A stretch of DNA of 64,000 nt from Luteibacter jiangsuensis (lineage in GTDB: Bacteria > Pseudomonadota > Gammaproteobacteria > Xanthomonadales > Rhodanobacteraceae): assembly GCF_030812295.1 (NCBI RefSeq), contig NZ_JAUSSK010000002.1:496001-560000 (forward strand), written 5' to 3'. Every line of letters starts with the position of its first letter. Positions within the stretch are counted from its first letter, which is position 1. Below are positions 4,877-26,491 of this stretch, piece by piece. The translations under genes were made by a program, and so were the position numbers. The notes beneath the pieces are model-generated. The model was not told the DNA's origin, made no database searches, and saw nothing but the letters and a program-made list of their open reading frames with translations.

Positions 4877-4885
4877 GAACGTTCC

Positions 4886-5662: not shown

Positions 5663-5750
5663 GGGAGTTCTCCGAGGCCACCGCGTGGCCGATGAGTCCA
5701 ATCTAGTTATTCGTCCTCCGTGGATAAATAATCGAACCACGATTTCATTA

Positions 5751-5764
5751 TTCATGTGGGTGAA
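5751..5764. promoter_or_regulatory. Possible LysR operator in the SDR/LysR divergent region
   Basis: A dyad TTCA-N6-TGAA sits just upstream of the LysR start inside an AT-rich stretch that stands out from the GC-rich surroundings. LysR proteins bind imperfect dyads of this size and commonly repress their own gene while activating the divergent one. The intergenic region is 107 bases and holds both promoters. Assigned from position and symmetry only. Confidence 0.35.
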
Positions 5765-5769
5765 CAACC

Positions 5770-6678
5770 ATGGATCGTCTGCTTGCCATGCGGGTATTCG
5801 GCCGCCTCGTCGAGACCGGGGGCTTTGGGCGCGCGGCCGACGCATTGCGCATGCCCAAGTCCACGGTGACCAAGTTGATCCAGGGGCTCGAGGCGGAACT
5901 GGGCGTCCGTCTGCTTGAACGCACCACGCGCCGGGTGACGGTGACCGCCGAAGGCGACGCCTACTACGAACGCACCCGCCAATGGCTCGCCGAACTGGAC
6001 GACTTCGAAACCACGCTCGCCGGTGGCCGCCGCAACCCCGTGGGCAATCTGCGGGTGGATACCGGTGGTTCGGTGGCGGCAGCACTCATCCTGCCCAGGC
6101 TCCCGGAATTCCGCGCGCGTTATCCCGGTATCCGCGTGCAGCTGGGGGTGACCGACCGGACCGTGGACCTGATCGGCGAGGGCATCGACTGCGCCATTCG
6201 CAGCACCGCCGACGATCCGAACCTAGTGACCCGGCAAATCGCCGAATTGCCCTGGATGTTGTGTGCCACGCCCGGTTACCTTGCGCGCCGTGGAACGCCG
6301 GCCGTTCCGGTGGACATCCTGCGTGAGGGCCATGATGTGATCGGCTATTTCTCCGCGCGCAGCGGCCGCACCCAGCCGCTGAGGTTTCGCGAGGACGCGC
6401 GCGAGACCCTGATCGAGGTGAAGGCGGCCGTCGAGGTCAACGAGAGCAACGCCCGCACGGCGGCGGTGATGGCAGGCCTGGGGCTGGCGCAAACCCTGGC
6501 GTTCACGACGAACGAACACGTCGCTCGCGGACGCCTGGTTAGCCTGCTGCCGGAATATCAGCCCGTTCCTTTGCCGGTGTATCTCGTCTATCCGCCGGAG
6601 CGCAGGCACAACGCCCGGCTGCGGGCCTTCGTGGACTGGATCGCCGATGAACTGCCGGCCCAGGCAGCGGGGCTGTAG
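5770..6678 (+). CDS. LysR-family transcriptional regulator
   Basis: 302-residue LTTR. The N-terminal winged HTH is clear ([49 protein letters not shown]), followed by the linker helix and a PBP2-type effector domain (residues about 90-295). The [22 protein letters not shown] segment places it in the CrgA/AaeR-like subgroup that often regulates divergent oxidoreductases. It is divergent from the SDR gene and is its most likely regulator. The inducer is unknown. Confidence 0.94.
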
Positions 6679-6681
6679 AGA

Positions 6682-6726
6682 TTTTTACCCGGAGGTATTG
6701 ACCTTATATTTAACCCGGGTAATATG
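6682..6726 (+). promoter_or_regulatory. Sigma70-like promoter with two CCCGG-centred dyads upstream of the DUF2239 gene
   Basis: TTGACC at 6698-6703 and TAATAT at 6720-6725 with a 16-bp spacer make a good sigma70-type promoter. A dyad centred on CCCGGG (TTAACCCGGGTAA, 6710-6722) lies in the spacer and runs into the -10, and a second weaker dyad (TTACCCGGAGGTA) lies 26 bases upstream, overlapping the -35. Bound repressor would block RNA polymerase. The DNA is AT-rich apart from the dyad cores. Confidence 0.6.
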
Positions 6727-6754
6727 TAGACAACTTGAGATCGACGGCAGCACC

Positions 6755-7315
6755 ATGTCCACTTACACCGCTTTCCTCGAACATCGACACCTCGCGGCTG
6801 GCTCGCTCGCCGTGGTGGCCGAGCGCTGCAAGATGCTGCTCGACAGCGATCCCGGCGCCACGCCGATCATCTACGACGACAGCACCGGCCGGCCCGTCGA
6901 TATCGACTACCGTGGCACCGTCCACGATGTGCTCGCGCGGTTACCGGGGTTCGACCCGGTGGCGAAGCGTGGGCCGGGCCGGCCGAAGCTGGGCGTCGTG
7001 GCCCGCGAGGTGACCTTGCTTCCGCGGCACTGGGAATGGTTGGCCAACCAACCCGGCGGCGCATCCGTCGCCTTGCGCCGTCTCGTCGAAACGGCCAGCC
7101 GCGATGGAGCGCCAGCCGATCGCGTGCGGCAGGCGCGCGAGGCGGTGGACCGGGTGATGTCGGCGCTCGCCGGCAACCTGCCCGGGTATGAAGAAGCCTC
7201 GCGGGCTTTCCATCGTCACGAGACCGAGCGGTTCGAAGCCCTCATCCATGATTGGCCCCAAGACGTGCGCGACTACGTGCATATGCTGGCGTCGCGCGCT
7301 ATTGGCGAGGGATAA
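6755..7315 (+). CDS. DUF2239 family protein
   Basis: A 186-residue soluble protein of a widespread uncharacterised family. The conserved signature is the segment KRGPGRPKLGVVAREVTLLP followed by RHWEWLANQPGGASVALRRL, which looks like a DNA- or nucleic-acid-contacting basic loop followed by a short ribbon-helix-helix-like element; this is my reading, not established. The C-terminal part is helical (AREAVDRVMSALAG). I chose the ATG at 6755 because the promoter and its dyads lie between 6682 and 6726, so the open frame before it cannot be coding. The gene is monocistronic; a REP element starts two bases after its stop codon. Confidence 0.8.
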   Translation: MSTYTAFLEHRHLAAGSLAVVAERCKMLLDSDPGATPIIYDDSTGRPVDIDYRGTVHDVLARLPGFDPVAKRGPGRPKLGVVAREVTLLPRHWEWLANQPGGASVALRRLVETASRDGAPADRVRQAREAVDRVMSALAGNLPGYEEASRAFHRHETERFEALIHDWPQDVRDYVHMLASRAIGEG

Positions 7316-7316
7316 G

Positions 7317-7545
7317 GTGGGAGCCGACCCTGTCGGCGATGGGTGCTTGCGTCAACCTGGCCCGCTGCCGCGGGATCGCCGACGAAGTCGGCTCCCACAA
7401 GGTCTGCTTCGACCCGGACTGCTCAACGTGAAGAGTGGCGAGTTCCCCTGTTGTGGGAGCCGCTTCAGCGGCGATGGGTGCTTGCGTCAATCTGGCCCGC
7501 TGCCGCGGGATCGCCGACGAAGTCGGCTCCCACAGGGTCGGCTCC
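7317..7545. repeat. REP block: two tandem units, each an inverted REP pair (REPIN-like)
   Basis: Unit 1: GTGGGAGCCGACCCTGTCGG at 7317 and its inverted partner at 7375-7398. Unit 2, 136 bases on: GTGGGAGCCGCTTCAGCGGC at 7453 with inverted partner at 7510-7533. The two units share the same connector (GGGTGCTTGCGTCAA, then TGGCCCGCTGCCGCGGG). The single REPs form short hairpins and the pair can form a long one. This 240-base gap between the DUF2239 gene and the RND gene holds nothing else. Confidence 0.93.
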
Positions 7546-7555
7546 CAGCAGTCAT

Positions 7556-10500
7556 CTAGCCTCTAGCCTTGCGGATCTTCAACCAGCGCTTGTACCGGCG
7601 CTTCAGCTTGCGACGGTATTTGCGCTCCTTGCGATCGTGGTTCCACAGGTAGATCGCGGGCGTGCTGAGCAAGGTGAGCAACTGCGACACGAGCAGGCCG
7701 CCGACGATGGCGATGCCCAGTGGGCGGCGCATCTCCGAACCCACGCCGAAGCCGATCGCCAGCGGCAGGGCCGCGCCCATCGCCACCAGCGTGGTCATGG
7801 TGATCGGGCGGAAGCGCACCAGCGCCGCCTGGCGGATGGCTTCCACCGGTGACATGCCGTGCTCGCGCTGTGCGACCAGGGCGAAGTCCACCATGAGGAT
7901 CGCGTTCTTCTTCACGATGCCGATCAGCAGCAACACCGAGATGATCGCCATGAGGGTGAGCTGGGTCTGAGTGACCAGCATGGCGAGGAAGGCACCGGCG
8001 CCCGCGGCCGGCAAGGTCGAGATGATGGTCAGCGGATGGCCCAGGCTCTCGTACAGGATGCCGAGCACGATGTAGACGGCGAGAATGGCGCCGATCAGCA
8101 GCACCATGCCGTTCGACTGCGCGTCACGCAGGCGCTGGTTCGCGCCGGTGAAGTCCATGCGGACACCTTCGGGCAGGTTGATCGCATGCACCGCCTGTTC
8201 GACCAGGGTGTTGCCCTTGTCCGCCGTGATTTTCGGCGCGAGGTTGTAGGTGATATCCGCCGATTCGAGCTGGTTCTGGTGGGTCACCGCGCTCGGCACC
8301 GCGACTGGCGCGATCTTTGCGACGGCCGACAACGGGATCATCGTGCCCACGCTGTTCTTCACGTAGGTGTTGAGCAAGGCATCCGGGCTGAGTGTCTGCG
8401 CGGCCGCGGCCGTCAACACCACCCAGTACTGGTTGATGTCCGAATAGATGATGGAGACCTGGCGCTGGCCGAAGGCGTTGAACAGGGCCGAGTCGATCAT
8501 GCCCATGCCCACCTGGAGGCGCGAGGCCGCGTCGCGGTCGACCTTCACCATCTGCTGCTTGCCGACGATGTCGAAGTCGCTGCCGACGTCGCGGAACTCC
8601 TTCATGTTGCGCATCTGGCGCACGAGCTTCAGCACCCAGGGCTGCAGGTCCTCGCCGCCGGTGCTGATCAATTGGAACGAGTACTGGCCGCGATTGCTGT
8701 TGCCGCCACCACCGCCGAGGAACTGCACGGGGTTCATGAAGACCTGGACATCGGAAAACTTCTCGTACTCCTTGCCAAGCCTGTCCATGATCTCCTTGAT
8801 CGATTCCTTGCGCTGGCCGGGACCGCTGCCCTTGGGCTTGAGGTCGACGAACATCAGGCCCTGGTTGCCCACGGCGCCACCGTTGTCGCCGCCGAGGATC
8901 GTGGTGACGTCGGCCACCGTGCTGTCGTTCTGCATGAGCTCGCTGACGCGTTTCAGGCGGCGCGTCATCTCATCCGGCGAGATGTTGGCGTCGGCGCTGA
9001 TCTGTGCCTGCAGCATGCCGGTGTCCTCGTCGGGCATGAAATTGCCGCCGGCCGTCTTCACCACGGCGATGGCCAGCACGACCGTCGCGGCGAGCAGGAT
9101 CAAAGGCTGCCAGCGCATCAGGCGGCGATGGCGCATCGCCCAGTCGAGCGCACGCTGGTAGACCCCGAGGAAACCCCGGTCGAAACGCTCCAGGGCCAGT
9201 TCCCAGCGGCTCGGCTTGCGGTCCGGCGCGTCGTGCTTGAGGTAATGCGCGCACAAGGCCGGCGTGAGGGTCAGCGACACCACCGCCGAGATCAACACCG
9301 CGGCGGCAAGCGTCACCGAGAACTCGCGGAGCAGCTTGGTGATCATGTTGTTGCCGAACAGCAGCGGCGCGAACACCGCCACCAGCGACAGCGTGATGGA
9401 GATCACCGTGAAACCGATCTCGCGCACGCCTTCCAGTGCCGCGGCCATGGGTTTCGCACCGTTCTCCATGTGCCGGACGATGTTCTCGATGACCACGATG
9501 GCGTCATCGACGACGAAGCCGATGCACAGCACCAGTGCCATCAGCGACATCGTGTTCAGGGTATAGCCCAACGTCCACATCACGACGAACGCACCCGCCA
9601 GCGACAGCGGCACGCTGAGCGTGGCGATCATCGTCGGCCCCAGACGGCGCAGGAACACCAGCATCACCAGGATGACCATGACGATACTGATCATCAGCGC
9701 GACCTTGACCTCGTGCAGTGCGGACTGCGTGGTCTGGGTCAGGTCGAAGATCGGCGTGACCTTCGCATCCGCCGGCAGCAGCGCCTGGAACCGTGGCAAC
9801 GCCGCACGGATGGCTTCCGCGGTGGCGATGGAGTTCGCCTCCGGGCGCTTGCTGATCTGCATGGTGACCGAGCGCTCGCCCTGGAACCACGCGGCCTGGA
9901 ACTGGTCCTGCTGCCCGCTGTGGACATTGGCGATGTCCGAGAGCCGTACCGGAACCCCATTGCGCATGGCGATCAGGATATTGGCGAAGTCCTTCGGGTC
10001 GCGCAGCCCGTCGTTCGCGATCACCGTCATCTGCGTCTCGCCGTCGGAGAGCACGCCCTGCGGCGAGTTCACGTTGGCGGCCTGCAAGGCGTTGGAGACA
10101 TCGTTCGCGGTCAGCTGCTTCGCCGCCAGGGCGTTCGTGTCCAGCTCGATGCGCACCGCATGGGGTGTCCCTCCGAACACCTGTACACGCGACACGCCGT
10201 CGATCTGTGCCACCGCGGGGCGGATCAGCGTGTCCACCACGTCGTAGAGCTTGTCGGGCGGCATGGTCTTCGAGGTCATCGCGACCAGCAGCACCGGGAT
10301 CTGGCCGGTGTCGAACTTGAAGTACTGCGGTGGCGAGGGCATGCCGGCGGGGAGGTCGGCGGCCGCCGCGTTGATCGCGGCCTGCACGTCGCGGGCGGCG
10401 GCGTCGGTCGAGCGGTCCATGTTGAAGCGGACGCGGACGAAGCCGGAGTTCTCCGTGCTGTTGGAGTACATCTGGTCGACACCCGGGATCTGCCCCAGGT

Positions 10501-10708
10501 GGCGCTCCAGCGGCGCGATGACCGTCGACGCCATCGTCTGCGCGTTGGCGCCGGGCATCTGCGCCTGGATAAAGACCGCCGGTACCTCGATCGAAGGCAA
10601 CGCGGCGACGCCCAGCAGCATGTATGCGATCGCGCCGGCGAGGGTCAGGCCCGCCGCAAGCAACGAGGTACCGATCGGCCGGCGAATGAATGGTGCAAAA
10701 AAGTTCAC
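7556..10708 (-). CDS. RND efflux transporter permease (HAE1 family)
   Basis: Proton-driven inner-membrane exporter, 1050 residues and 12 helices, normal for AcrB/MdtB-type proteins. Visible are the GTSLLAAGLTLAG first helix, the paired aspartates in VVDDAIVVIEN near residue 400 that carry protons, the lysine-rich GIVKKNAILMVDFA motif in the second half, and the MRRPLGIAIVGGL signature of HAE1 pumps. It begins at GTG 10708 with AGGAAG in front. Odd points: no membrane-fusion or outer-membrane partner is adjacent, and the protein ends in a very basic tail (KERKYRRKLKRRYKRWLK). It lies 130 bases downstream of btuB on the same strand, separated by a hairpin, so it is probably transcribed separately. 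Its sequence resembles MdtB/MdtC and MuxB/MuxC more than AcrB. Confidence 0.93.
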   Translation of the reverse strand: MNFFAPFIRRPIGTSLLAAGLTLAGAIAYMLLGVAALPSIEVPAVFIQAQMPGANAQTMASTVIAPLERHLGQIPGVDQMYSNSTENSGFVRVRFNMDRSTDAAARDVQAAINAAAADLPAGMPSPPQYFKFDTGQIPVLLVAMTSKTMPPDKLYDVVDTLIRPAVAQIDGVSRVQVFGGTPHAVRIELDTNALAAKQLTANDVSNALQAANVNSPQGVLSDGETQMTVIANDGLRDPKDFANILIAMRNGVPVRLSDIANVHSGQQDQFQAAWFQGERSVTMQISKRPEANSIATAEAIRAALPRFQALLPADAKVTPIFDLTQTTQSALHEVKVALMISIVMVILVMLVFLRRLGPTMIATLSVPLSLAGAFVVMWTLGYTLNTMSLMALVLCIGFVVDDAIVVIENIVRHMENGAKPMAAALEGVREIGFTVISITLSLVAVFAPLLFGNNMITKLLREFSVTLAAAVLISAVVSLTLTPALCAHYLKHDAPDRKPSRWELALERFDRGFLGVYQRALDWAMRHRRLMRWQPLILLAATVVLAIAVVKTAGGNFMPDEDTGMLQAQISADANISPDEMTRRLKRVSELMQNDSTVADVTTILGGDNGGAVGNQGLMFVDLKPKGSGPGQRKESIKEIMDRLGKEYEKFSDVQVFMNPVQFLGGGGGNSNRGQYSFQLISTGGEDLQPWVLKLVRQMRNMKEFRDVGSDFDIVGKQQMVKVDRDAASRLQVGMGMIDSALFNAFGQRQVSIIYSDINQYWVVLTAAAAQTLSPDALLNTYVKNSVGTMIPLSAVAKIAPVAVPSAVTHQNQLESADITYNLAPKITADKGNTLVEQAVHAINLPEGVRMDFTGANQRLRDAQSNGMVLLIGAILAVYIVLGILYESLGHPLTIISTLPAAGAGAFLAMLVTQTQLTLMAIISVLLLIGIVKKNAILMVDFALVAQREHGMSPVEAIRQAALVRFRPITMTTLVAMGAALPLAIGFGVGSEMRRPLGIAIVGGLLVSQLLTLLSTPAIYLWNHDRKERKYRRKLKRRYKRWLKIRKARG

Positions 10709-10796
10709 GACACTTCCTGTGATCGCGGGAAGGCTCCCCGCGCCCGCGAACTTTATGACGTTCCGCTTGTTTCGTCGCGTGTGCCTTTAGTGGGGG

Positions 10797-10814
10797 CCCT
10801 GCCGGAAGGCAGGG
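10797..10814 (-). terminator. Hairpin after btuB (weak terminator)
   Basis: Perfect 7-bp stem CCCTGCC / GGCAGGG with a four-base loop, located just after the btuB stop. There is no T-run after it on the minus strand, so read-through into the RND gene is possible. Confidence 0.4.
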
Positions 10815-10838
10815 GTGCTCCGTTCATGCGGCGGCGCG

Positions 10839-12725
10839 TCAGTGCCCGGGTGCGTAGCGGAACGTCAGATAATATGTACGCCCCAACTGGTTGTAGAACG
10901 CCGCCGTCTCGTAGCGCTTGTCGGCGACGTTGGCGACCCTGCCCTGCACGCTCCAGTCCGTGTCCAGGTGCCAGGTCGCGCGGAGGTCGGCCGTGGCGTA
11001 GCCGCCAAGCCGGCGGGTGTTGGCCGCGTCGTCGTAGCTGTAGCCGGCCGCGTAGACCGAACCGCCCAGGGTGAAGCGGCCGAGGTCCTTGTCCAGGTCC
11101 ACCCGCGCGGTGCGCTCGGGACGGCGCGCCAGCAGGTTGTCCTCCTGCGCGCCCGAATCCCGGTTCTTCGGCTGTTGAAGCGTGGCATAGGCCCGTACGT
11201 GCCAGCCGCCGACGTCGGCGCCGACTTGTCCTTCCAGCCCGCGGATGCGCGCCTTGCTCACGTTTACCGGCAGGAAGTTGGCATCGAAGCCGATCAGGTC
11301 GTCGACCGTGGTCTGATAGGCGTTGACCGCCCAGTTCCACACGCCCGGCCGCGCCGAGAGGCCGATCTCGGCCGTGCGCGAGGTCTCGGGGCTCAGGTTC
11401 ACCGGCGCGCCGTAAGGGTAGAACTCGTCGTTGAACGTGGGCGCATGGAAGGCCGTGCCATACGACGCGGTGATCTTCATGCCGTTGTCGAAGCGGAAAC
11501 CGTAGGCCGCCGAGCCGGTCGTATGGTTGCCGAACTGGGTGTTGTGGTCGTGGCGCGCCGACAACTGGATCTCGTGCGGACCGAACAGACCCTGGTAGAG
11601 CGCGAACACGCCGGTATTGTTCCGTGAGTCCTTGAGGTAATCCGTATCGCTTTTCAGCTTTTCCTGTTGGAAATCCACGCCCGCGCTCAACGTCTGGTCC
11701 TTGGCCAGGACGAAGTCGTTCTGCCACGACGCCTGGTTGCGCTTCGAATAGAGGTAACCGACGCGGGCCTTGTCCACGCCGTAATGGACGAAGTCGAGGG
11801 TCTTGTCGGCTCCGTTGAGGTAATTGTCGGCACGGTCCTGGTTCTGGCCCAGGCCGAGGGACATGCGCCAGTTCCCAAGGACATCGAACGCCAGCTTCGC
11901 CCCGGCGACCTGTTGCGAGCGCCGGGTCAGGTTCTGGAAATCGCCGTCGTATTCGATATCACCCTTGCTGCGCAGCCAGCTGCCGGTCAACTCCGTGCCG
12001 TCGTCCCAGCGATAGCCACCCGACAGCGAGCCGTTATAGGTACGGGATGCATCGTGGTCGGGTTCGTCGGTGAAGCAGCCGGCAAAGGCGGCCGCGGTGC
12101 CGATGCGGCAGGCGTTGATGCCGGCCGTGTACTGCCCACCCAGGCTGGCGTTGTACCAGCCGTGCTGGCTTCCGCCGGACACGCCCACCTGGCCCGCTGC
12201 GTAGCCATGGCTGCCGCCGGTCACCGAGAGCGTCGGCGTGGGCGCTTCGCCGGCCTGGCCGTGGCGGGTGAAGATCTGGATCACGCCGCCGATGGCATCG
12301 GACCCGTACAGGGCGGAGCGGGGACCGCGGACGATCTCGATGTGATCGATCTGCTCCACGGGAAGCTGCTCGTAGGCCGGCAGGCCGGCGCCGACGGTGC
12401 CCACGCGGACGCCGTCCAGCAACACCAGGGTATGCGACGAATTGGTGCCGCGCATGAACAACGAGGTCTGCTGGCCGATGCCACCGGCATTGGCGATCGT
12501 CACGCCGGGCAGGCCGGCAAGCAGGTCCTGCACGCTCACCGGCTGCAGGCGCTCGATGTCCTCGCGGGTGATCAGCGTGACCGGCGCGAGTACCTCGTCC
12601 AGTGGCGTGGCGGCGCGATTGGCGGTCACCACGACCGGATCGAGCCGGTCGGGCGCGCCCTCGTCGGCGGCATGGGCCACGGCGATGGAGGACAGCAAGG
12701 CCGTCGCGAGCAGGGTCTTCTTCAT
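10839..12725 (-). CDS. btuB: TonB-dependent vitamin B12 receptor BtuB
   Basis: Outer-membrane beta-barrel that imports cobalamin with TonB energy. 628 residues; signal peptide ends at AVAHA-A, a TonB box (DPVVVTA) follows, then the plug domain with LLAGLPGVTI and the IEIVRGPRSALYGSDAIGGVIQIFT motif characteristic of BtuB-like receptors, and a 22-strand barrel ending in YYLTFRYAPGH. It is preceded by a cobalamin riboswitch on the same strand, which makes the assignment to B12 or another corrinoid secure. No btuCDF genes follow. Confidence 0.95.
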   Translation of the reverse strand: MKKTLLATALLSSIAVAHAADEGAPDRLDPVVVTANRAATPLDEVLAPVTLITREDIERLQPVSVQDLLAGLPGVTIANAGGIGQQTSLFMRGTNSSHTLVLLDGVRVGTVGAGLPAYEQLPVEQIDHIEIVRGPRSALYGSDAIGGVIQIFTRHGQAGEAPTPTLSVTGGSHGYAAGQVGVSGGSQHGWYNASLGGQYTAGINACRIGTAAAFAGCFTDEPDHDASRTYNGSLSGGYRWDDGTELTGSWLRSKGDIEYDGDFQNLTRRSQQVAGAKLAFDVLGNWRMSLGLGQNQDRADNYLNGADKTLDFVHYGVDKARVGYLYSKRNQASWQNDFVLAKDQTLSAGVDFQQEKLKSDTDYLKDSRNNTGVFALYQGLFGPHEIQLSARHDHNTQFGNHTTGSAAYGFRFDNGMKITASYGTAFHAPTFNDEFYPYGAPVNLSPETSRTAEIGLSARPGVWNWAVNAYQTTVDDLIGFDANFLPVNVSKARIRGLEGQVGADVGGWHVRAYATLQQPKNRDSGAQEDNLLARRPERTARVDLDKDLGRFTLGGSVYAAGYSYDDAANTRRLGGYATADLRATWHLDTDWSVQGRVANVADKRYETAAFYNQLGRTYYLTFRYAPGH

Positions 12726-16527: not shown

Positions 16528-17673
16528 TCAGCCGAAGACTTTCGTGCCGCCGATCCACGTCTCCGCGACATGGTGGCTGTCGTCCATCACCACGAAGTCG
16601 GCGCGGTAGCCGGCGGCGATGTGGCCGTGGCTGGCGCCGAGGCCCAGGAAATCGGCTGGGTACGTGGACGCCATGCGCGCGGCTTCGTCGTAGGCGACGC
16701 CGACCATGCCGACCGTGTTGCGTACCGCCGTCGCCATGTCCAGCGCGGAGCCCGCGAGCGTGCCGTCCGCCGTCTGGCAGACGCCGTCGCGCACGGTGAT
16801 GGTTTCACCCTTGAGCACGAAGCTCGGGTTGTCGGAGCCGACCGGCGGCATCGCGTCGGTCACCAGCATCATCTTCTCGCGCGCCTTCGCGGCGATGGCT
16901 ACGCGCAGCGACGCAGGGTGCACGTGATGGCCGTCGACGATCAGGCCGCACCAACTGGCGGCATCCTCCAGTGCGGCGCCGACCACGCCGGGTTCGCGGC
17001 TGGTGAACGGCGTCATCGCATTGAACAGGTGGGTGAAGCCGCGCACGCCCTTGGCAAGGGCTCCGCGCGTGGTCTCGTAGTCGGCGGCGGTGTGGCCGGT
17101 GGCGACGATCACACCGTGCGACACCAGTTGTTCGAGCACGTCGTCCGACGCGCGTTCCGGCGCGAGGGTGAGCAGGGTGACGCCGCCATGGCGCCGCGCG
17201 ACCATCGCTATGTCGTCGGCACCGGCGATGCGGAACTTGGCGGCGTCATGAACGCCCTTGCGCTCGGGTGCGATGAACGGTCCTTCGAGATGGATGCCGA
17301 GCACGCCGGGCACGCCCTGCTCCACCGCCGCGTTCACGGCGTCGATGGCCTTCGCCATCACCTCGGCGTCGTCGCTGATCAGCGTGGGCAGGAAACCGGT
17401 GGTGCCGAACTTCGCGTGCGCTTCGCCGATCGTGCGAATGGTCTCCACCGTGGGTGCGTCGTTGAACAGCGCGCCGCCGCCACCATTGACCTGGCAATCG
17501 ATGAAACCGGGCAGCAGCGTGCGGCCGCCGAGGTCGTGGCGTTCCGCGGCGCGCACACGCGGATCCGACGGCAACGCCAATCCCGTGATGGTGCCGCCGT
17601 CGACCAGCACGGCGAAGCCGCCCTGGAATCCGTTATCGGTGAGTACGCGACCGTTGACGAGGGCGATGGTCAT
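16528..17673 (-). CDS. nagA: N-acetylglucosamine-6-phosphate deacetylase
   Basis: Cytoplasmic amidohydrolase that turns GlcNAc-6-P into glucosamine-6-P and acetate. 381 residues, the family norm. Metal and catalytic residues are present: HLEGPF (Glu130), GHT (His194), THLFNAM (His215), DGHHVH (about 250) and the catalytic Asp in TDAM (Asp273). The N-terminal amidohydrolase signature LPGFIDCQVNGGGG is intact. AAGGA precedes the ATG. Last gene of the nagQ-nagB(II)-nagA operon, 66 bases after the isomerase gene; this gap carries a short REP remnant. Confidence 0.96.
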   Translation of the reverse strand: MTIALVNGRVLTDNGFQGGFAVLVDGGTITGLALPSDPRVRAAERHDLGGRTLLPGFIDCQVNGGGGALFNDAPTVETIRTIGEAHAKFGTTGFLPTLISDDAEVMAKAIDAVNAAVEQGVPGVLGIHLEGPFIAPERKGVHDAAKFRIAGADDIAMVARRHGGVTLLTLAPERASDDVLEQLVSHGVIVATGHTAADYETTRGALAKGVRGFTHLFNAMTPFTSREPGVVGAALEDAASWCGLIVDGHHVHPASLRVAIAAKAREKMMLVTDAMPPVGSDNPSFVLKGETITVRDGVCQTADGTLAGSALDMATAVRNTVGMVGVAYDEAARMASTYPADFLGLGASHGHIAAGYRADFVVMDDSHHVAETWIGGTKVFG

Positions 17674-17739: not shown

Positions 17740-18774
17740 TCAGACCGTCTCCGTCACCTTGTTCAGGTGCGGCGGGACATCGGGATTGAAACCGCGCTTC
17801 AGGGAAAGCGCCGCGGTGGCGCGATAGAAGCTCTGTACGGCGAGCAGCGGCGCGCTGATCGGCGCGGATGCCACCAGCGGCAGCACGCCCTCGCCCGTCG
17901 CGCCTGGCGCGGCGATCCAGACCTTGGCGTCGCGCTTGCGGAATTCGGCGGCGACGTCGAGCACGCCTGGCAGCGTGTCGTCGTTCTGTGCGAAGAACAG
18001 CACCGGGAAGTCCGGGCCCACGAGCGCCATCGGTCCGTGCTTGACCTCGGCCGAACTGAACGCCTCGGCATGCAGACCGCAGGTTTCCTTGAACTTCAGC
18101 GCCGCTTCGAGGGCCCCGGCGAAGCCGAAGCCACGGCCGACCACGAAGAGGTTGTGCGCGTCGACGAGGCCATCCGTGAGTGCCGACCAGTCCGCGTCCC
18201 AACCTTCGCGCAGCTGCGCGGGCAACGCGGTGAGCGCGTCGCCGATGGCGGCGCTTCCGCTCCAGCGCGCGGCGATGTGAAGGATGGCGAACAACGCGCC
18301 GAGGTAGCTCTTCGTCGCGGCGACGCTCTTCTCCGGGCCCGCATGCAGGGGCACGACCACGTCGGCGACGGCGGCGAGCGGCGAATCGACCACGTTCACC
18401 AGCGCCACGACATAGGCGCCGGCTTTCTTCGCCGCGTCAGCGTTGCGGACCAGGTCGGGGCTCTTGCCCGATTGGGATACGGCGACATAGAGCGCGCCGT
18501 CGAGGTGCTGCGTGGCGTGGTAGATGGACGTCACCGACGGCGAGGCCGACGCGGTGACGACGCCGAGTTGGGTCTCGAACACGTACTTGGCATACATCGC
18601 CGCGTGATCGGAGCTGCCGCGCGCGCAGGTGATCACCATGCGCGGCGGGTTCGCGCGCAGGCGTCCGGCGAGCGCACCGATCACTTCTTCGTTGTGCGCC
18701 AGTTGCCGCTCGACGACCTCGGCGGTCTCGTGCGCTTCGCGGAACATCAGGGTGTCTTGCGGCTGGATCGTCAT
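17740..18774 (-). CDS. nagB: SIS-domain glucosamine-6-phosphate deaminase (NagB-II type)
   Basis: 344-residue protein with two SIS sugar-isomerase domains (about 35-165 and 200-330) and no glutaminase domain, the layout of the non-orthologous deaminase NagB-II. Visible are the ITCARGSSDHAAMYAKYVFE segment at the first phosphosugar site, VAVSQSGKSPD, GRGFGFAGALEAALKFKETC and the AEAFSSAEVKHGP motif in the second domain. It would convert glucosamine-6-P to fructose-6-P and ammonia, completing what NagA starts. Start chosen at 18774 (MTIQPQDTLMFREAHE); the upstream open frame overlaps nagQ. Separated from nagQ by only 16 bases. No classical NagB is in the window. Confidence 0.88.
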   Translation of the reverse strand: MTIQPQDTLMFREAHETAEVVERQLAHNEEVIGALAGRLRANPPRMVITCARGSSDHAAMYAKYVFETQLGVVTASASPSVTSIYHATQHLDGALYVAVSQSGKSPDLVRNADAAKKAGAYVVALVNVVDSPLAAVADVVVPLHAGPEKSVAATKSYLGALFAILHIAARWSGSAAIGDALTALPAQLREGWDADWSALTDGLVDAHNLFVVGRGFGFAGALEAALKFKETCGLHAEAFSSAEVKHGPMALVGPDFPVLFFAQNDDTLPGVLDVAAEFRKRDAKVWIAAPGATGEGVLPLVASAPISAPLLAVQSFYRATAALSLKRGFNPDVPPHLNKVTETV

Positions 18775-18790: not shown

Positions 18791-19543
18791 TCAGTCGCTT
18801 TGCAGTTCCGCGACGAAATCGTAGATATCGCCGCGGTACCAGGAACAGGTGAATTCGACGATGCGGCCATCTTCGAGGAAGCTGCGCCGTTCGATGTTGA
18901 GGCCGGCACTGCCGGCACCGAGGCGGAGCAGGCGGGTCTGCGCGGGTCCGAGTACCACGGCGCGCAGGCGTTGCAGCGCGCGCAGCGGGCGGTTGCCGAG
19001 CTTGTCGAGCGCTTCGTAGAGCGAATCCTCCACGAGGTTCGGATCGGGCAGGAGGTCCAGCGGCACCGCGCTGCGCTCGATCGCCAGCGGTTCGTCGCCC
19101 GCGTAGCGCAGGCGATGCAGGCGCACCACGAGCGTGCCCGGCGAGAGGTTCATCGCCATGGCTTCCTCCGGCGTGACCTCGCCGATGCCACGCTCGAAAA
19201 ACTCGGAGCGGGGATTCAGGCCACGGGCGCGCAGGTCCTCGGTGAAGCTGGTCATCCGCGACAGTGGCTTCACGATGCGCTCGGAGACGAAAGTGCCCGC
19301 GCCATGTCGCTGGGTGAGCAGGCCGTCCTCGACCAGCCCACCGATGGCCTTGCGCACGGTGACCCGCGACAGGGTGAGGGCCCTGGCGAGATCGCGTTCG
19401 CTGGGCAAGGCATGGCCCACCTGGACCTCGCCGTTCTCGATCACGTTGCGGATCGCCCGGCGCAGGCGCATGTACGCCAGCGGCTGCCGGGTAGCCGGGT
19501 CGTGTTGCAGGCGCTGGTATTCGGCGACGAGGGCACTTTCCAT
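18791..19543 (-). CDS. nagQ: GntR/HutC-family regulator, probable NagQ
   Basis: 250 residues: N-terminal winged HTH (PLAYMRLRRAIRNVIENGEV, LPSERDLARALTLSRVTVRKAI, QRHGAGTFV) and a C-terminal UTRA effector domain (about 95-240). The family includes NagR/YvoA/DasR, which bind TGGT-containing operators and release DNA on binding GlcN-6-P or GlcNAc-6-P. First gene of the operon with nagB(II) and nagA, so it should autoregulate and control GlcNAc use. Its promoter region faces zwf, raising joint control of the Entner-Doudoroff operon. Start at the ATG 19543; the open frame upstream runs into the operator region. Confidence 0.88.
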   Translation of the reverse strand: MESALVAEYQRLQHDPATRQPLAYMRLRRAIRNVIENGEVQVGHALPSERDLARALTLSRVTVRKAIGGLVEDGLLTQRHGAGTFVSERIVKPLSRMTSFTEDLRARGLNPRSEFFERGIGEVTPEEAMAMNLSPGTLVVRLHRLRYAGDEPLAIERSAVPLDLLPDPNLVEDSLYEALDKLGNRPLRALQRLRAVVLGPAQTRLLRLGAGSAGLNIERRSFLEDGRIVEFTCSWYRGDIYDFVAELQSD

Positions 19544-19553
19544 CCGCCGAAGA

Positions 19554-19602
19554 TACCAATCCACGACCACTGCGGCAAGACCGCGCAAGCCGGGGCATAC
19601 CA
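19554..19602 (-). promoter_or_regulatory. TGGTA repeats on the nagQ side of the shared intergenic region
   Basis: On the minus strand TGGTA occurs at 19558-19554 and 19602-19598, with a partial copy (AGTGGT) at 19571-19566. The GGT cores are 11 and 33 bases apart, i.e. whole helical turns, and read in the direction of nagQ. They mirror the array in front of zwf and may be NagQ sites. Confidence 0.4.
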
Positions 19603-19612
19603 GCCAACCGTT

Positions 19613-19655
19613 CAAACGGTCGTTTGCACGATCCAAATGGCGCTAGCAAACGTTT
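19613..19655. promoter_or_regulatory. Two LacI-type dyads in the nagQ-zwf intergenic region
   Basis: CAAACG-GT-CGTTTG (19613-19626) and AAACGTTT (19648-19655, within GCAAACGTTTCC). Their centres are 32 bases apart, close to three helical turns. AAACGTTT-type cores with central CG are typical of LacI/GalR-family operators. The cognate regulator is not proven; the LacI protein encoded at 25397-26425 is one candidate. Confidence 0.5.
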
Positions 19656-19701
19656 CCAAGCGGTTATCAGGCGGTGAAAGGTGACTAAACGTCGCGGCGA
19701 G

Positions 19702-19739
19702 TGGTACGGGGCTGGTACGTCCTGGTATGTCACTGGTAC
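19702..19739 (+). promoter_or_regulatory. Four TGGTA(C/T) direct repeats upstream of zwf, one per helical turn
   Basis: TGGTAC at 19702, TGGTAC at 19713, TGGTAT at 19723 and TGGTAC at 19734: start-to-start 11, 10 and 11 bases, so all lie on one face of the DNA. The last copy runs into TGGTACGAT, an extended -10-like sequence. A TGGT core is the hallmark of NagR/DasR/YvoA operators, though these are normally inverted, not direct. Confidence 0.6.
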
Positions 19740-19781
19740 GATCCGGAGGCATTCCATCCGATCCCTCAAGAGGCCACTGTC

Positions 19782-21254
19782 GTGAGCGCTCCCCTCCTGC
19801 CGATCGAACCGTTCGATCTGGTCATTTTCGGCGGCACCGGCGATCTCGCCGTCCGCAAGTTGTTGCCTGCCATGTACCACCGCTTCGCGGACGGGCAGAT
19901 CCAGGCGAAGAGCCGCATCATCGGCGTGGCCCGCGAAGGGCTTGATGATGCCGCGTACCGCGAGCAGGTGCGCGCCGCGGTCGAGAAGGGCGTCTCGCAC
20001 ATCGTGCCCGCCCAGCTGGACGCCTTCATCCAGATGATCGGCTACCGCTCGCTCGACGCGCGCAAGGCCGACGGCTGGGATGAATTCGCCGCCCTGATGG
20101 CCGCCGAGCCCAGCCACATCCGCGTGTTCTACCTGTCGACCTCGCCGGACATCTTCACCGACATCTGCCAGCGCCTGGGCTCACTCGGGCTCAATGGCGA
20201 GCGTTCGCGCGTGGTGCTGGAAAAGCCGATCGGCCGCGACCTCGACAGCGCCAACGCGATCAACGACGCCGTGGCGCGGGTCTTCGGCGAGTCGCAGACG
20301 TATCGCATCGACCATTACCTGGGCAAGGAAACGGTGCAGAACCTGCTGGCGTTGCGCTTCGGCAACGCCCTGTTCGAGCCGCTGTGGAACGCCCAGCACA
20401 TCGACCACGTGCAGATCACCGTGGCCGAAACGGTAGGCGTCGGCCATCGCGCCGGTTATTACGACCGTGCCGGCGCCCTGCGCGACATGGTCCAGAACCA
20501 CATCCTGCAGCTCCTGTGCATGCTTGCCATGGAGCCGCCGTCGTCGCTGGCGCCGGACGCCGTGCGCGACGAGAAACTGAAGGTGCTGCGTTCGCTGCGC
20601 CCGATCGACGCCAGCAACGCGGCACAACTCACCGTGCGTGGCCAGTACCGCGCCGGTGCGGCCGAAGGTCAAGGCGTCCCGGGCTATCTCGACGAGCTCG
20701 GCAGCGACCAGTCGAAAACCGAAACCTTCGTCGCCCTCAAGGCGGAGATCGGTAACTGGCGCTGGGCCGGCGTGCCGTTCTACCTGCGCACCGGCAAGCG
20801 CCTTCCCAGCCGGGTATCGGAGATCGTGGTGACGTTCCGCGCATTGCCACACTCCATCTTCGATCCCACCAGCGGTCCGCTGTTGCCCAACCGCCTCACG
20901 CTGCGCTTGCAGCCGGACGAAGGCGTGAAGCTGTGGCTGACCATCAAGCACCCGGGTCCGGGTGGCCTGCGCCTGCGCCACGTGCCGCTCGACATGAGCT
21001 TCGCGGCGGCCTTCGGCGTGCAGCAGCCCGACGCGTACGAACGGCTCATCCTCGATGTCGTGCGTGGCAATCCGACCCTGTTCATGCGCCGCGACGAGGT
21101 CGAGGCGGCATGGAACTGGGCCGGTCCCATCCTCGATGCGTGGGAGGCCGGCGGCGACACGCCGAAGCCGTATACCGCGGGCACCTGGGGTCCGAGCGCC
21201 GCCGTGGCGCTCATCGAACGCGATGGCCGCACCTGGGCCGAGGACGCCGCATGA
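19782..21254 (+). CDS. zwf: Glucose-6-phosphate dehydrogenase
   Basis: First enzyme of the oxidative pentose phosphate and Entner-Doudoroff routes: glucose-6-P + NAD(P)+ to 6-phosphogluconolactone. 490 residues. The NADP-binding motif GGTGDLA is at 17-23, EKPIGRDL at 147-154 and the active-site RIDHYLGKE at 175-183, with the catalytic His. I start it at GTG 19782, with AAGAGG eight bases in front; the GTG at 19701 is excluded because it lies on the operator array. It opens a four-gene operon with pgl (4-base ATGA overlap), edd and eda. Control is probably exerted by the repeats and dyads between nagQ and zwf. Confidence 0.97.
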   Translation: MSAPLLPIEPFDLVIFGGTGDLAVRKLLPAMYHRFADGQIQAKSRIIGVAREGLDDAAYREQVRAAVEKGVSHIVPAQLDAFIQMIGYRSLDARKADGWDEFAALMAAEPSHIRVFYLSTSPDIFTDICQRLGSLGLNGERSRVVLEKPIGRDLDSANAINDAVARVFGESQTYRIDHYLGKETVQNLLALRFGNALFEPLWNAQHIDHVQITVAETVGVGHRAGYYDRAGALRDMVQNHILQLLCMLAMEPPSSLAPDAVRDEKLKVLRSLRPIDASNAAQLTVRGQYRAGAAEGQGVPGYLDELGSDQSKTETFVALKAEIGNWRWAGVPFYLRTGKRLPSRVSEIVVTFRALPHSIFDPTSGPLLPNRLTLRLQPDEGVKLWLTIKHPGPGGLRLRHVPLDMSFAAAFGVQQPDAYERLILDVVRGNPTLFMRRDEVEAAWNWAGPILDAWEAGGDTPKPYTAGTWGPSAAVALIERDGRTWAEDAA

Positions 21255-21952
21255 ACGCAAAAGTGAACCGACACGAATTCGCCGACCGTCTCACCCTCGC
21301 CGACAAGCTCGCCCGCGAGGTCGCCGCGAAGCTCGACGCTGCGATCAAGGCACGCGGCAAGGCCACGATCGCCGTTTCGGGCGGCGGCACGCCGAAGGTG
21401 ATGTTCGCCGTGCTTGCCGAGCAGGAGATCGACTGGTCCAGGGTCACCGTCACGCTGGTCGACGAGCGCTGGGTCGACACCGACAGCGACCGCTCGAATG
21501 CGCGCATGGTCTCCAGCACGCTGCTCACCCACGAAGCGCGTGTCGCTTCCTTCCTGCCGCTGTTCGACCGCGCGCACAAGGACGACGTGGACGCCGCGCT
21601 CGCCGATGTCGGCAAGCGCGTCGACGCGCTTGGCTCTCCGTTCGACGTCGTATTGCTCGGCATGGGGCCGGATGGCCATACCGCGTCGTTCTTCCCGGGC
21701 GGCGATCATCTCGCCGAGGCGCTCGATCTCGCCGGCAAGCAACCCGTGCTGTCGATGCGCGCCGAGGGGGCGGGCGAGCCGCGCATCACGCTCAGCCTGC
21801 CGCGTGTACTCGATACGCGCGCGCTGTACCTGCACATCGAAGGCGACGACAAGAAGGACCTGCTGGGCAAGGCCCTGGCCGGCGCGGACTTTCCCATTGC
21901 CGCCGTGCTGAAGCAGGATCGCGTGCCGGTCGACGTCTACTGGGCACCGTAA
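21251..21952 (+). CDS. pgl: 6-phosphogluconolactonase
   Basis: Hydrolyses 6-phosphoglucono-lactone to 6-phosphogluconate. 233 residues, normal for the SOL/DevB type. It has [13 protein letters not shown] at the phosphate site, [20 protein letters not shown], and the [14 protein letters not shown] signature with the catalytic residues. The start ATG overlaps the zwf stop (ATGA), so translation is coupled; edd follows after four bases. Confidence 0.96.
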
Positions 21953-21956
21953 CGCC

Positions 21957-23768
21957 ATGAGTATCCATCCCACCCTCGCCGAGGTGACCCGGCGAATCGT
22001 CGAGCGTAGCCGCACCTCGCGCGCGGCTTACCTTGCCAAGATCGACGGGGCGCGCGGCAAGGGTGCCAAGCGCCACCACCTGTCGTGCGGCAACCTCGCA
22101 CACGGCTTCGCCGCCTGCGCGGAGACCGACAAGGACGCGCTGCGCAACGGTCATGCGGCGAACATCGCGATCGTCACCTCGTACAACGACATGCTTTCGG
22201 CGCATCAGCCGTATGAGCGCTATCCGGAACTCATCCGCCAGGCCGCCCGCTCGCTCGGTGCCACCGCGCAGGTCGCGGGTGGCGTGCCGGCGATGTGCGA
22301 CGGCGTGACCCAGGGCCGTCCCGGCATGGAGTTGTCGCTGTTCTCGCGCGACCTCATCGCCATGGCCACGGCGGTTTCGCTTTCGCACGACATGTACGAG
22401 GGGGCGTTGTACCTGGGCATCTGCGACAAGATCGTGCCGGGCATGCTGATCGGTGCACTGAGCTTCGGCCACCTTGCCGGTGCCTTCGTGCCCTCGGGTC
22501 CGATGCCCTCGGGCATCCCGAACGAGGAGAAGTCGAAGGTGCGCCAGGCGTTCGCCGCCGGCAAGGCCACGCGTGCCGAACTGCTCGAAGCCGAAGCGCG
22601 CTCGTACCATGGCTCGGGTACGTGCACCTTCTACGGGACCGCCAACTCCAACCAGATGTTGATGGAGATCATGGGCCTGCACCTGCCTGGCGCGAGCTTC
22701 GAGGCACCGGACACGCCGCTGCGCGATGCGCTCACCCGGGCCACCGTGGAACGCGTGCTGGCCATCGATACGCTGGGCGAGCACTACCTGCCCCTGGGTC
22801 GTATCGTCGACGAGCGCGCCATCGTCAACGGCGTGGTCGGCCTGCACGCCACGGGCGGTTCCACCAACCACCTGCTGCATCTCGTCGCCATCGCGCGCGC
22901 GGCCGGCGTGGAGTTGCGCTGGGACGACTTCGATGCCCTCTCCGCCGTGGTGCCGTTGCTGGCACGCGTGTACCCCAACGGCTATGCCGACGTGAACCAC
23001 TTCCATGAAGCCGGAGGCATGGGCTTCCTGATCGACCAGCTGCTCGACGCGGGCCTGCTGCACGACGACGTGAACACGATCATGGGTCACGGCCTGCGCC
23101 ACTACCGCACCACCCCTGTGCTCGAGGACGGAGCACTCGTGTGGAAGCCGGTGTCGAAGGAGAGCGGCAACCGTGGCGTGCTTCGCTCCATCACCGAACC
23201 GTTCCGCCACGACGGCGGCTTGCGCATGCTCGACGGCAACATCGGCCGTGGCGTGATCAAGGTGTCCTCGGTGCCGGACGACCGCATGGTCGTCGAGGCC
23301 CCCGCGATCGTGTTCGACGAACAGGACGACGTGAAGGCGGCCTTCGACCGTGGCGAGCTCAATCGCGATTTCATCGCGGTGGTCCGCTTCCAGGGGCCTC
23401 GTGCGCGTGGCATGCCCGAGCTGCACAAGCTCACGCCGACGCTGAGCCTGTTGCAGGACCGCGGGTACCGCGTGGCCCTGGTCACCGATGGCCGCATGTC
23501 CGGCGCATCCGGGCGTGTGCCGGCGGCGATCCACGTCACGCCGGAAGCCGAGGCGGGCGGACCCATCGCACGCATCCGCACGGGCGATCTCGTGCGCGTC
23601 GATGCCGTCAACGGCACGCTCCAGGTGCTGGTCGATGCCGACGAGTGGAACAGCCGCGTCCCCGACCACGTCGACCTTGCCGTGCATCACACCGGCATGG
23701 GTCGTGAACTCTTCGCCATGTTCCGCCAGTCGGCCGTCACGGCCGATCTGGGCGCGGGCGTCTTTTGA
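21957..23768 (+). CDS. edd: Phosphogluconate dehydratase (Entner-Doudoroff)
   Basis: [4Fe-4S] dehydratase of the IlvD/Edd family that converts 6-phosphogluconate to KDPG. 603 residues, the standard length. Cluster cysteines are seen in [21 protein letters not shown] and [16 protein letters not shown]; the C-terminal [20 protein letters not shown] motif is fully kept. Third gene of the zwf-pgl-edd-eda operon; no promoter between pgl and edd. Confidence 0.97.
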
Positions 23769-23787
23769 TTTACCGGAGCAGTACCTG

Positions 23788-24438
23788 ATGAGTAACGAAG
23801 CGAAGCAGAAACTCGTCGAAGCCACGTTGCGCCTCGCGCCGGTGGTTCCCGTGGTGATCATCGACGACGCCTCGAAGGCCGTGGGCATGGCGCGCGCCCT
23901 GGTCGCGGGCGGCGTTCCCGCGATCGAGGTGACACTGCGCACGCCCGCCGCCCTGGACGCGGTGCGCGCGATCGCCGCCGAAGTGGAAGGTGCCTTCGTC
24001 GGTGTCGGCACGGTGCTTACCGCGCGCGACCTCGAGAACGCATACAAGGCGGGCGCGAAGTTCGCGGTGTCGCCGGGCAGCGCGCCGCGCCTGCTCGATG
24101 CGGCGGACGATTCGGAACTGCCCCTGCTGCCGGGCGCGGCGACATCCAGCGAGGCGATGGAGTTGCTCGAGCGCGGCTACCGCTTTCAGAAGTTTTTTCC
24201 GGCGGTCCCGGCCGGTGGCGCGAAGCTGATCGGCGCCTGGGCCAGCCCGCTGCCGCAGATCCGGTTTTGCCCGACCGGCGGTATCGGCCTCGCCAATGCG
24301 CCCGACTTCCTTGCCTTGCCCAACGTCGTCTGCGTCGGCGGTTCCTGGCTCACCCCTGCCGACAAGTTGGCCGCTTCGGACTGGGCCGGCATCGAAGCCC
24401 TCGCACGCGAGGCGGCGACACTGACGCGCAAGGCCTGA
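23788..24438 (+). CDS. eda: KDPG aldolase (2-dehydro-3-deoxyphosphogluconate aldolase)
   Basis: Class I aldolase that splits KDPG into pyruvate and glyceraldehyde-3-P. 216 residues. Glu47 and Arg51 in IEVTLRT and the Schiff-base Lys135 in RFQKFFPA match the family; GQ in the usual loop is replaced by AVSPGSAPRLL as in other proteobacteria. The ATG at 23788 has CCGGAG in front. It closes the Entner-Doudoroff operon, and is followed by a 90-base gap without a clear terminator. Confidence 0.96.
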   Translation: MSNEAKQKLVEATLRLAPVVPVVIIDDASKAVGMARALVAGGVPAIEVTLRTPAALDAVRAIAAEVEGAFVGVGTVLTARDLENAYKAGAKFAVSPGSAPRLLDAADDSELPLLPGAATSSEAMELLERGYRFQKFFPAVPAGGAKLIGAWASPLPQIRFCPTGGIGLANAPDFLALPNVVCVGGSWLTPADKLAASDWAGIEALAREAATLTRKA

Positions 24439-25396: not shown

Positions 25397-26425
25397 TTAC
25401 AACCGCCGAGGGGCCGTCGATCCGCGCACGACGAGATCCGGGCTGAAGCCCTCGTTCTCGATCATCGGCTCGTTGTCCTCGCGTTCGAGTTCCGCGATGA
25501 GGCGTTGTGCCGCGTGACGGCCGATCTCCTCGGTGTTCTGGCGTGCGGTGGTCAGTGCGGGCCAGGACTGCTTGGAGAACGGGCTGTCCTCGAAACCGGC
25601 GATGGACAACTCCCAGGGCACGTCCACGCCTCCGGAACGGGCGGCGGCAAGCACGCCGGCCGCGATCTCGTCGTTCGAGCCGAAGATCGCCGTGGGCGGT
25701 TCCTTCAAGGCGAGCAGCTTGCGCGCGCCGCGGAAGCCATCGTCGAACGAATAATCACCCTCCACCACGAGCTTTTTGTCCACCGCGATGCCGTACTCGC
25801 GCAGCGCGTCCTCGTAGCCCTGGTAGCGCTCGGGGCTGGAGCGGTGTTCCTTGCCGCCCCAGAGGAAGCCGATGCGGTGGTGTCCAAGCTGGATGAGGTG
25901 CTCGGTGATGGCGTAGGCCGCGTCGCGGTCGTCGACGAAGACGCAGGGCCAGCCGTCCTTGGGGTCCTGCCGCGCCGAGATGATCCGCACGAAAGGCACT
26001 TTCTGTTCCGTCAGCGTCGCCAGCAGACCCGGCTGCTCCGACATCGGCGGGCAGAGCACGAGGCCGGCCAGCCGGTTGCGCCGTACCAGGTCGCCCAGTT
26101 GCTCGGCCAGGCGTGGGGCGGAGGAGTCGCAGGGATGGATCTGCAGGCCGAAGCCACGCTCGCGGCATACCGAAAGCACGCCGTTCTGCATGGCGATGAC
26201 GTAGTGCGCGTTGGGGTTGTCGTAGACCAGGCCCAGCGCGTAGGTACGCGAGCTGCGCAGGCTGCGCGCGGCCTGGTCGGGCTGGTAATCGAGCGCCTCG
26301 ATCGCGCGCTGCACCCTCTCGCGGGTACGCGCATGGACCGACGGCTCGTGGTTGATCACGCGGGAGACGGTCTTGAGCGATACGCCCGCGCGCTCGGCGA
26401 CGTCCTTAATGGTAGGGCTACGCAA
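25397..26425 (-). CDS. nagR: LacI-family transcriptional regulator, probable NagR
   Basis: LacI/GalR regulator of 342 residues with the N-terminal HTH (SPTIKDVAERAGVSLKTVSRVINHEPSV) and a periplasmic-binding-protein-like effector domain; CVFVDDRDAAYAITEHLI, GHHRIGFLWGG and FGSNDEIAAGVL are typical motifs. I prefer the TTG start at 26425: it is preceded by GAGGGG seven bases upstream and gives a normal LacI N-terminus. The ATG at 26455 would add ten hydrophobic/basic residues behind a weak site. It lies downstream of the sugar transporter on the same strand, and a perfect TGACAACGTTGTCA palindrome near glk fits the known NagR site type in Xanthomonas. The name is inferred. Confidence 0.85.
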   Translation of the reverse strand: MRSPTIKDVAERAGVSLKTVSRVINHEPSVHARTRERVQRAIEALDYQPDQAARSLRSSRTYALGLVYDNPNAHYVIAMQNGVLSVCRERGFGLQIHPCDSSAPRLAEQLGDLVRRNRLAGLVLCPPMSEQPGLLATLTEQKVPFVRIISARQDPKDGWPCVFVDDRDAAYAITEHLIQLGHHRIGFLWGGKEHRSSPERYQGYEDALREYGIAVDKKLVVEGDYSFDDGFRGARKLLALKEPPTAIFGSNDEIAAGVLAAARSGGVDVPWELSIAGFEDSPFSKQSWPALTTARQNTEEIGRHAAQRLIAELEREDNEPMIENEGFSPDLVVRGSTAPRRL

Positions 26426-26491
26426 TCTACGACCCCTCAATAGCAAGACGGCCATCCTAGCGGATGACCGTTACTTAGCGAAGGTGGGACC

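Follow-up and report, generated by a model that had tools for sequence, protein, structure and literature searches.

A candidate NagQ operator of head-to-tail TGGTA units between nagQ and zwf in Luteibacter and related bacteria

Four copies of TGGTA stand in close to regular step in front of zwf in a 64-kb stretch of the Luteibacter jiangsuensis genome (hereafter the window). They raise the question of which protein reads them, and with what effect on the genes to either side. The copies lie in a 238-bp spacer (19544-19781) between two divergent genes, nagQ on the minus strand and zwf on the plus strand. The original prediction had this spacer separating a nagQ-nagB(II)-nagA operon from zwf-pgl-edd-eda, and the gene calls hold (Table 1). 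The nagB-II-like protein scores below the curated cut-off of NF046059 (338.8 vs 430 bits), while eda, read within ORF 23488-24438, has matches at the equivalent place in relatives, e.g. L008 and L205. Downstream of the zwf operon, a LacI-family gene (25397-26455) adjoins a NagP/GluP-like transporter gene. Luteibacter genomes hold up to three zwf-like matches each, the window's zwf included, so that the latter may be the inducible copy. The zwf of named Luteibacter records is 94% identical to it.

Table 1. Features of the nagQ/zwf region in window coordinates
Feature	Position	Strand	Basis
nagA, GlcNAc-6-phosphate deacetylase	16528..17673	-	TIGR00221 above cut-off
nagB-II-like glucosamine-6-phosphate deaminase (SIS)	17740..18774	-	start read from ORF by eye
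nagQ, GntR/HutC regulator	18791..19543	-	domain profiles, solved-structure matches
Candidate nagQ operator pair TGGTC-N6-TGGTA; copy 2 is the probable extended -10 (TATCTT, 19555-19550)	19550..19569	-	
Probable nagQ -35 TTGCCG, 17-bp spacer	19573..19578	-	TTG at conserved spacing
LacI-type CG-centred palindrome GCAAACGTTTCC, second conserved site of the spacer	19646..19657	+	Luteibacter alignment
Putative zwf operator array, four TGGTA copies, 11-10-11 bp	19702..19742	+	spacing, genus alignment, family pair conservation
Probable zwf -10 hexamer TACGAT inside the last copy	19737..19742	+	extended -10 TG at 19734-19735
zwf, glucose-6-phosphate dehydrogenase, GTG start at 19782	19782..21254	+	TIGR00871 above cut-off
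pgl, 6-phosphogluconolactonase	21251..21952	+	TIGR01198 above cut-off
edd, phosphogluconate dehydratase	21957..23768	+	TIGR01196 above cut-off
eda, KDPG aldolase	23788..24438	+	start by eye in ORF; position after edd

On the plus strand TGGTA starts at 19702, 19713, 19723 and 19734, precisely where it had been placed from the sequence. The spacing is regular and close to a turn, although the wording 'exactly one helical turn' was slightly loose, the steps being 11, 10 and 11 bp; together they make 32 bp, or three turns of about 10.7. The minus strand carries TGGTA at 19558-19554 and at 19602-19598, 44 bp apart, and TGGTC at 19569-19565, 11 bp upstream of the nagQ-proximal copy. The spacings of 11 and 33 bases announced for the nagQ leader are therefore recovered if the TGGTC is counted, but not from the exact pair. 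The nagQ side of the window is thus degenerate in its first unit, and the distal minus-strand copy (19598) lies where the Luteibacter alignment shows little conservation (53% identity). TGGTA occurs 68 times in the whole window against 29 expected from dinucleotide shuffles, so single copies carry little meaning. The spaced form TGGTA-N5/6-TGGTA has six matches in the 4.32-Mb genome to which the window belongs. Three of these are the array itself and three lie inside long ORFs (alpha-L-fucosidase-like, LysR-like and GH92-like, assigned by reading and not by profile). No ACCA half site occurs within 19690-19750, which rules out reading the array as the inverted, palindromic TGGT...ACCA dre-site of NagR and DasR.

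Within the genus, 22 of 23 Luteibacter genomes (own genome included) have zwf, the missing one being the 80% complete G011. All 22 spacers keep four TGGT units at 10- or 11-bp steps. Conservation of the repeats and of their phasing in close relatives, the check proposed along with the original prediction, was therefore found throughout. The four units are exact TGGTA in 20 of the 22; in the other two the second unit is TGGTC or TGGTT. In a MAFFT alignment of the 22 spacers (21 besides the window), the 41-bp array has a mean identity of 96% to the window, compared with 51% over the 44 bp before it, 60% over the 39 bp after it, 82% for the nagQ core promoter and 70% for the spacer as a whole. 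It is the best conserved of the spacer segments measured. A further block at 19614-19637 (window letters CAAACG-N2-CGTTTGCACGATCCAAAT) is largely retained in Luteibacter.

The comparison was extended to 127 genomes, an even draw from the larger family Rhodanobacteraceae. At the thresholds used (E up to 1e-190 for zwf, up to 1e-40 for nagQ) each gene was found in 98 genomes, both in 97, one alone in two and neither in 28. The two single cases are G126, with zwf at a place where the contig ends just past the gene, and G064, with nagQ. Where both genes are present they are divergent and within 1 kb of each other in 96 of the 97 genomes. In the remaining one, G068, an insertion parts them by about 7.6 kb and both retain a TGGTA pair. 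By eye, positions 4300-11900 of this locus (L212) hold an apparent chaperone-usher fimbrial cluster, with an usher-like ORF at 6653-9529 and an extra nagQ-promoter-like pair at 4468. In G187, where zwf was not found, nagQ keeps its own TGGTA pair.

The 98 family loci and 12 further Luteibacter upstream stretches, the window among them, make up 110 zwf loci. Upstream of zwf, exact TGGTA-N6-TGGTA is present in 101 of them and TGGT-N7-TGGTA or better in 107. Some of these letters are fixed by construction, since the finder looked for TGGTA at 0 preceded at -11 by TGG or GGT; the count of 101 exact pairs is not produced by this requirement. Starts of zwf were estimated from alignment, and in some loci the estimate is not a start codon. 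Between consecutive TGGTA copies up to 40 bp apart, in the sense of zwf, the step is 11 bp in 121 cases, 10 bp in 32, 12 bp in one, 21 bp in two and 25 bp in eight. The dominance of the 11-bp step makes a pair at 11 bp the family-wide unit. A third in-step TGGT unit appears in 8 of 24 genera, and a fourth in Luteibacter only. On the nagQ side 100 of the 110 loci were scored; left out were five without a nagQ start in their stretch (L121, L164, L166, L169, L181), three with TGGTA more than 16 nt from the start (L123, L132, L142) and two in which the aligned position holds no start codon (L188, L189). TGGT stands upstream of the last TGGTA in 96 of these 100, at 11 bp in 75 and at 12 bp in 21, a placement at the nag genes that agrees with an autoregulatory NagQ operator. 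Since all these loci are related by descent, the counts are not independent.

A second family, which is probably Xanthomonadaceae (its named members are Lysobacter and Pseudoxanthomonas), was represented by ten loci. With a pattern that requires T at +8 and allows 10-12 bp, the pair was found at nagQ in all ten and at zwf in nine. More distant nagQ-like genes, in families f4 (2 genes) and f8 (8 of 9 found), lack the 11-bp pair, four of them showing no pair and six a different TTGGTA arrangement; hence the pair is not universal among NagQ-like proteins. In the f8 leaders L197-L202, an ATAT stretch is flanked by at least two TTGGTA units. The pair was absent from all zwf loci without nagQ in the examined stretch, 68 named loci and 3 from genomes of the order. 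This contrast is confounded with phylogeny, the 68, from among 80 named loci (the best 80 of 591), being mostly of Alphaproteobacteria; some of the stretches were also short upstream.

How specific is the pattern to this spacer? The three-unit form TGGTA-N5/6-TGGTA-N5/6-TGGTA gave 30 matches in 21 of the 127 family genomes, each close upstream of zwf, and none when written backward. The form TGGTAT-N5-TGGTAY-NNT gave 108 matches in 96 genomes, against one for the backward control. Of these, 106 fall within 1 kb of the 5' end of zwf (95 genomes), so that strong sites, to the extent that this pattern captures them, occur almost exclusively in the nagQ/zwf spacer. The other two are one match 7 nt before nagQ in G064 and one stray in G045. 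Three genomes with zwf but without a match (G084, G119, G138) do have the repeat, with C after the first TGGTA of the pair. G126 supplies the only match among the 29 genomes without a detected nagQ. A looser search of the window's own genome (TGGTA-N6-TGGTA-N3-T, up to one mismatch) returned 9 matches against 19 for the backward control, and further NagQ targets can therefore not be claimed there. The 64-kb window has no array-type site elsewhere, and hence none at the NagP-like gene.

The regulator encoded beside the array has a GntR winged helix (PF00392) and a UTRA domain (PF07702), both above cut-off, and its best solved-structure matches are NagR/YvoA and DasR. All three DNA-contact residues of NagR (Arg38, Arg48, Gly69) are retained, as are 13 of the 15 residues that contact GlcN-6-P or GlcNAc-6-P, the changes being I166 to L and A224 to T; both sets are named in a passage of PMC4333415. 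We call the protein NagQ on the strength of its subfamily, the motif and the neighbouring genes. In the literature, NagQ is described as recognising direct repeats of TGGTATT, as an exception within the HutC subfamily (PMC4494728), its motif is given as tandem repeats, and its targets in two Xanthomonas species are nagAB and nagP (PMC5343134). Direct repeats are thus unusual for the HutC subfamily, as had been remarked, but they are already on record for NagQ. The zwf-side pair fits this motif; the published passage gives the repeat, and the 11-bp period was measured here. The seventh letter of the motif, the second T, is not kept in the window's array. With nagQ next to zwf in almost every genome, the identity of the binding protein cannot be proved from the motif alone. 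A link to NagQ is nevertheless the best reading, since the array matches the published motif and sits on both divergent promoters. The central claim of the original prediction, a conserved operator-like array tying GlcNAc catabolism to the Entner-Doudoroff route, can accordingly be retained as the best reading of the sequence. The cooperative binding along one face that it also proposed is more conjectural, and the unit common to the family is a pair.

An extended -10 element has the form TGnTAnnnT. The last unit before zwf carries T at +8 in 109 of the 110 loci, and the last unit before nagQ does so in all 100 scored, while the copy 11 bp upstream on the zwf side has T at the equivalent place in only 9 of 110. 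At either end of the spacer, then, the operator probably also serves as the extended -10, and transcription of zwf is predicted to start near 19749, downstream of the array. On the nagQ side, a TTG at spacer 17 or 18 marks a probable -35 in 91 of 100 loci; a -35 of zwf is not recognisable (TTG at spacer 16-18 in 11 of 110). A general promoter scan at its own thresholds reported no sigma-70 site in 19480-19850, and the nagQ -35 is weak. The start codon of nagQ follows TGGTA by 10, 11, 12 or 13 nt in 57, 32, 10 and 1 loci, respectively. This range is partly a product of the filter that dropped the three loci beyond 16 nt, which did not act on the T at +8. Relative to the +1 expected from the extended -10, the start codon of all 100 scored loci is at that position or within a few bases. 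Shine-Dalgarno-like letters precede nagQ in 4 of 100 loci, as against 98 of 110 at zwf. It appears that nagQ is probably leaderless, its +1 being the A of the ATG at 19543. Neither this nor the overlap with the -10 elements was part of the original prediction.

We think it likely that the array is the zwf-side operator of NagQ, which would repress both divergent operons until released by an amino-sugar 6-phosphate. The proposal has as its sequence-based parts the repeats, their phasing, conservation and near restriction to the spacer, the -10-like form and the NagQ contact residues; NagQ binding, repression, the effector, the leaderless start and cooperativity are what we infer from them. NagQ would read head-to-tail TGGTA units about one helical turn apart, the last unit at each end of the spacer being the extended -10 and the next lying just upstream. 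Bound there, it would exclude RNA polymerase from nagQ-nagB-nagA and zwf-pgl-edd-eda together, and both operons would be shut at once because its units cover the -10. Upon uptake of GlcNAc, GlcNAc-6-P or GlcN-6-P would bind the UTRA domain and release NagQ, so that the nag and Entner-Doudoroff enzymes would appear jointly. Once isomerised, the fructose-6-P made by NagB can pass into the Entner-Doudoroff route, which would make sense of a joint induction in which NagB products feed the co-induced pathway. In Luteibacter, the two extra phased units would extend the site across and past the -35 region, which probably tightens repression, and the nagQ message would probably start at its own start codon. 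To the stricter version, in which repressor site and promoter are one, the two divergent extended -10s are NagQ half sites, extra copies set how tightly zwf is shut off and nagQ is leaderless, we give about even chances.

Other explanations must be weighed against this. LacI operators are CG-centred palindromes; the spacer itself has a conserved one of this type, and downstream of the zwf operon, beside the NagP-like transporter, there is a LacI gene. The array might then serve the product of that gene (25397-26455), or yet another regulator, with NagQ merely a neighbour. We regard this as improbable, given that the array consists of direct TGGTA repeats, the published NagQ motif, unlike LacI palindromes. 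Moreover, the pair is also present on the nagQ promoter, where it is kept even with zwf 7.6 kb away or not found, and among genomes without a detected nagQ the only match is the one at a contig end. About as improbable, in our view, is that the bound NagQ acts on zwf as an activator, or does no more than tune it. Activator-dependent promoters may have no recognisable -35, and zwf has none; yet an extended -10 can work without a -35. A protein sitting on these units, which cover the probable -10 and the bases immediately upstream, would block polymerase. The title of PMC6141813, on the other hand, terms NagR of Bacillus thuringiensis a dual regulator.

It could also be argued that the conserved letters are promoter elements only, a duplicated extended -10 with no operator role, as the last copy has the -10 form almost everywhere. 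We hold this to be very unlikely: the copy 11 bp upstream is conserved as exact TGGTA but seldom has the -10 T, Luteibacter keeps four copies in fixed phase, and an ordinary promoter element would recur elsewhere instead of being nearly restricted to the nagQ/zwf spacer. Least probable of all is that the array arose by chance, is coding sequence of a longer zwf or acts as an RNA element in the zwf leader, even though the ORF of zwf can be extended as far as a GTG at 19701. Chance is rejected on the strength of 200,000 first-order Markov sequences built from the 238-bp spacer, of which 122 had a chain of two TGGTA copies in phase, one a chain of three and none a chain of four. A coding extension is rejected because the steps add up to 32 bp, which is not divisible by 3, and because a Shine-Dalgarno-like stretch precedes the downstream zwf start in most loci. 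An RNA element is rejected as 19400-19900 has no Rfam match at gathering score; the predicted zwf transcription start, too, lies downstream of the array.

How does the proposed NagQ operator compare with known systems? Like the NagQ box of Xanthomonas, it has direct TGGTATT-type repeats and a GntR/HutC gene clustered with nagB-II and nagA. It differs in up to four phased units and in the predicted targeting of zwf-pgl-edd-eda as well, the Xanthomonas passages naming nagAB and nagP but not zwf. NagR/YvoA and DasR belong to the same GntR/HutC subfamily, and the three DNA-contact residues of NagR are kept here, but their dre-sites are described as palindromic or near-palindromic, whereas the units here run head to tail. 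NanR of E. coli, acting on (GGTATA)3, is likewise a GntR-type repressor on tandem promoter repeats, which is reported to bind as three dimers, cooperatively. It belongs, however, to the FadR subfamily, its effector domain being alpha-helical and its cooperativity mediated by an N-terminal extension of 32 residues, while the regulator here has a UTRA domain and so lies outside that subfamily. The repeat period of NanR also differs from that of the array. HexR, GluR, PckR and GapR regulate zwf-pgl-edd type operons too; HexR is of the RpiR family and the others are LacI proteins, the sites of GluR and GapR are palindromic and, as these sources describe them, none is an amino-sugar regulator.

The direct-repeat form is thus not new, having been published for NagQ, and the motif type and the regulator were already known. 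As a predicted NagQ target, zwf-pgl-edd-eda appears to be new, together with the wide family conservation, the phased four-unit form and the promoter overlap. A partial literature search, whose scope did not take in the 2010 Xanthomonas target list (PMC2832512), found no report of zwf as a NagQ target, and by term count 'zwf' is absent from the main text of a Pseudomonas paper with a NagQ gene set (PMC9023270). If the proposal is true, the operon for entry into the Entner-Doudoroff pathway joins an amino-sugar repressor regulon across a large bacterial family, and amino-sugar supply is tied directly to the main hexose route, through a compact arrangement that makes one sequence serve as operator and -10 element. 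The head-to-tail arrangement sets NagQ apart from most of the HutC subfamily, and the genera provide a natural series (2, 3 or 4 phased units, with 11- or 12-bp steps) for learning how a dimeric GntR protein reads such sites.

It is probable that NagQ is not alone in controlling zwf, since the LacI-type site of the spacer is conserved too (87% identity in the Luteibacter alignment) and suggests a second input on this gene. Allowing up to one mismatch, GNAAACGTTTNC occurs in the window solely at this site. The LacI gene downstream is a candidate for its regulator. The CG-centred palindromes are of the AAACGTTT type in Luteibacter and of the ATGAATTCGTATGCAT and TTGCATACGATTGCAA types in other genera; such other forms lie about 102-138 bp before zwf in several genera, though not in all.
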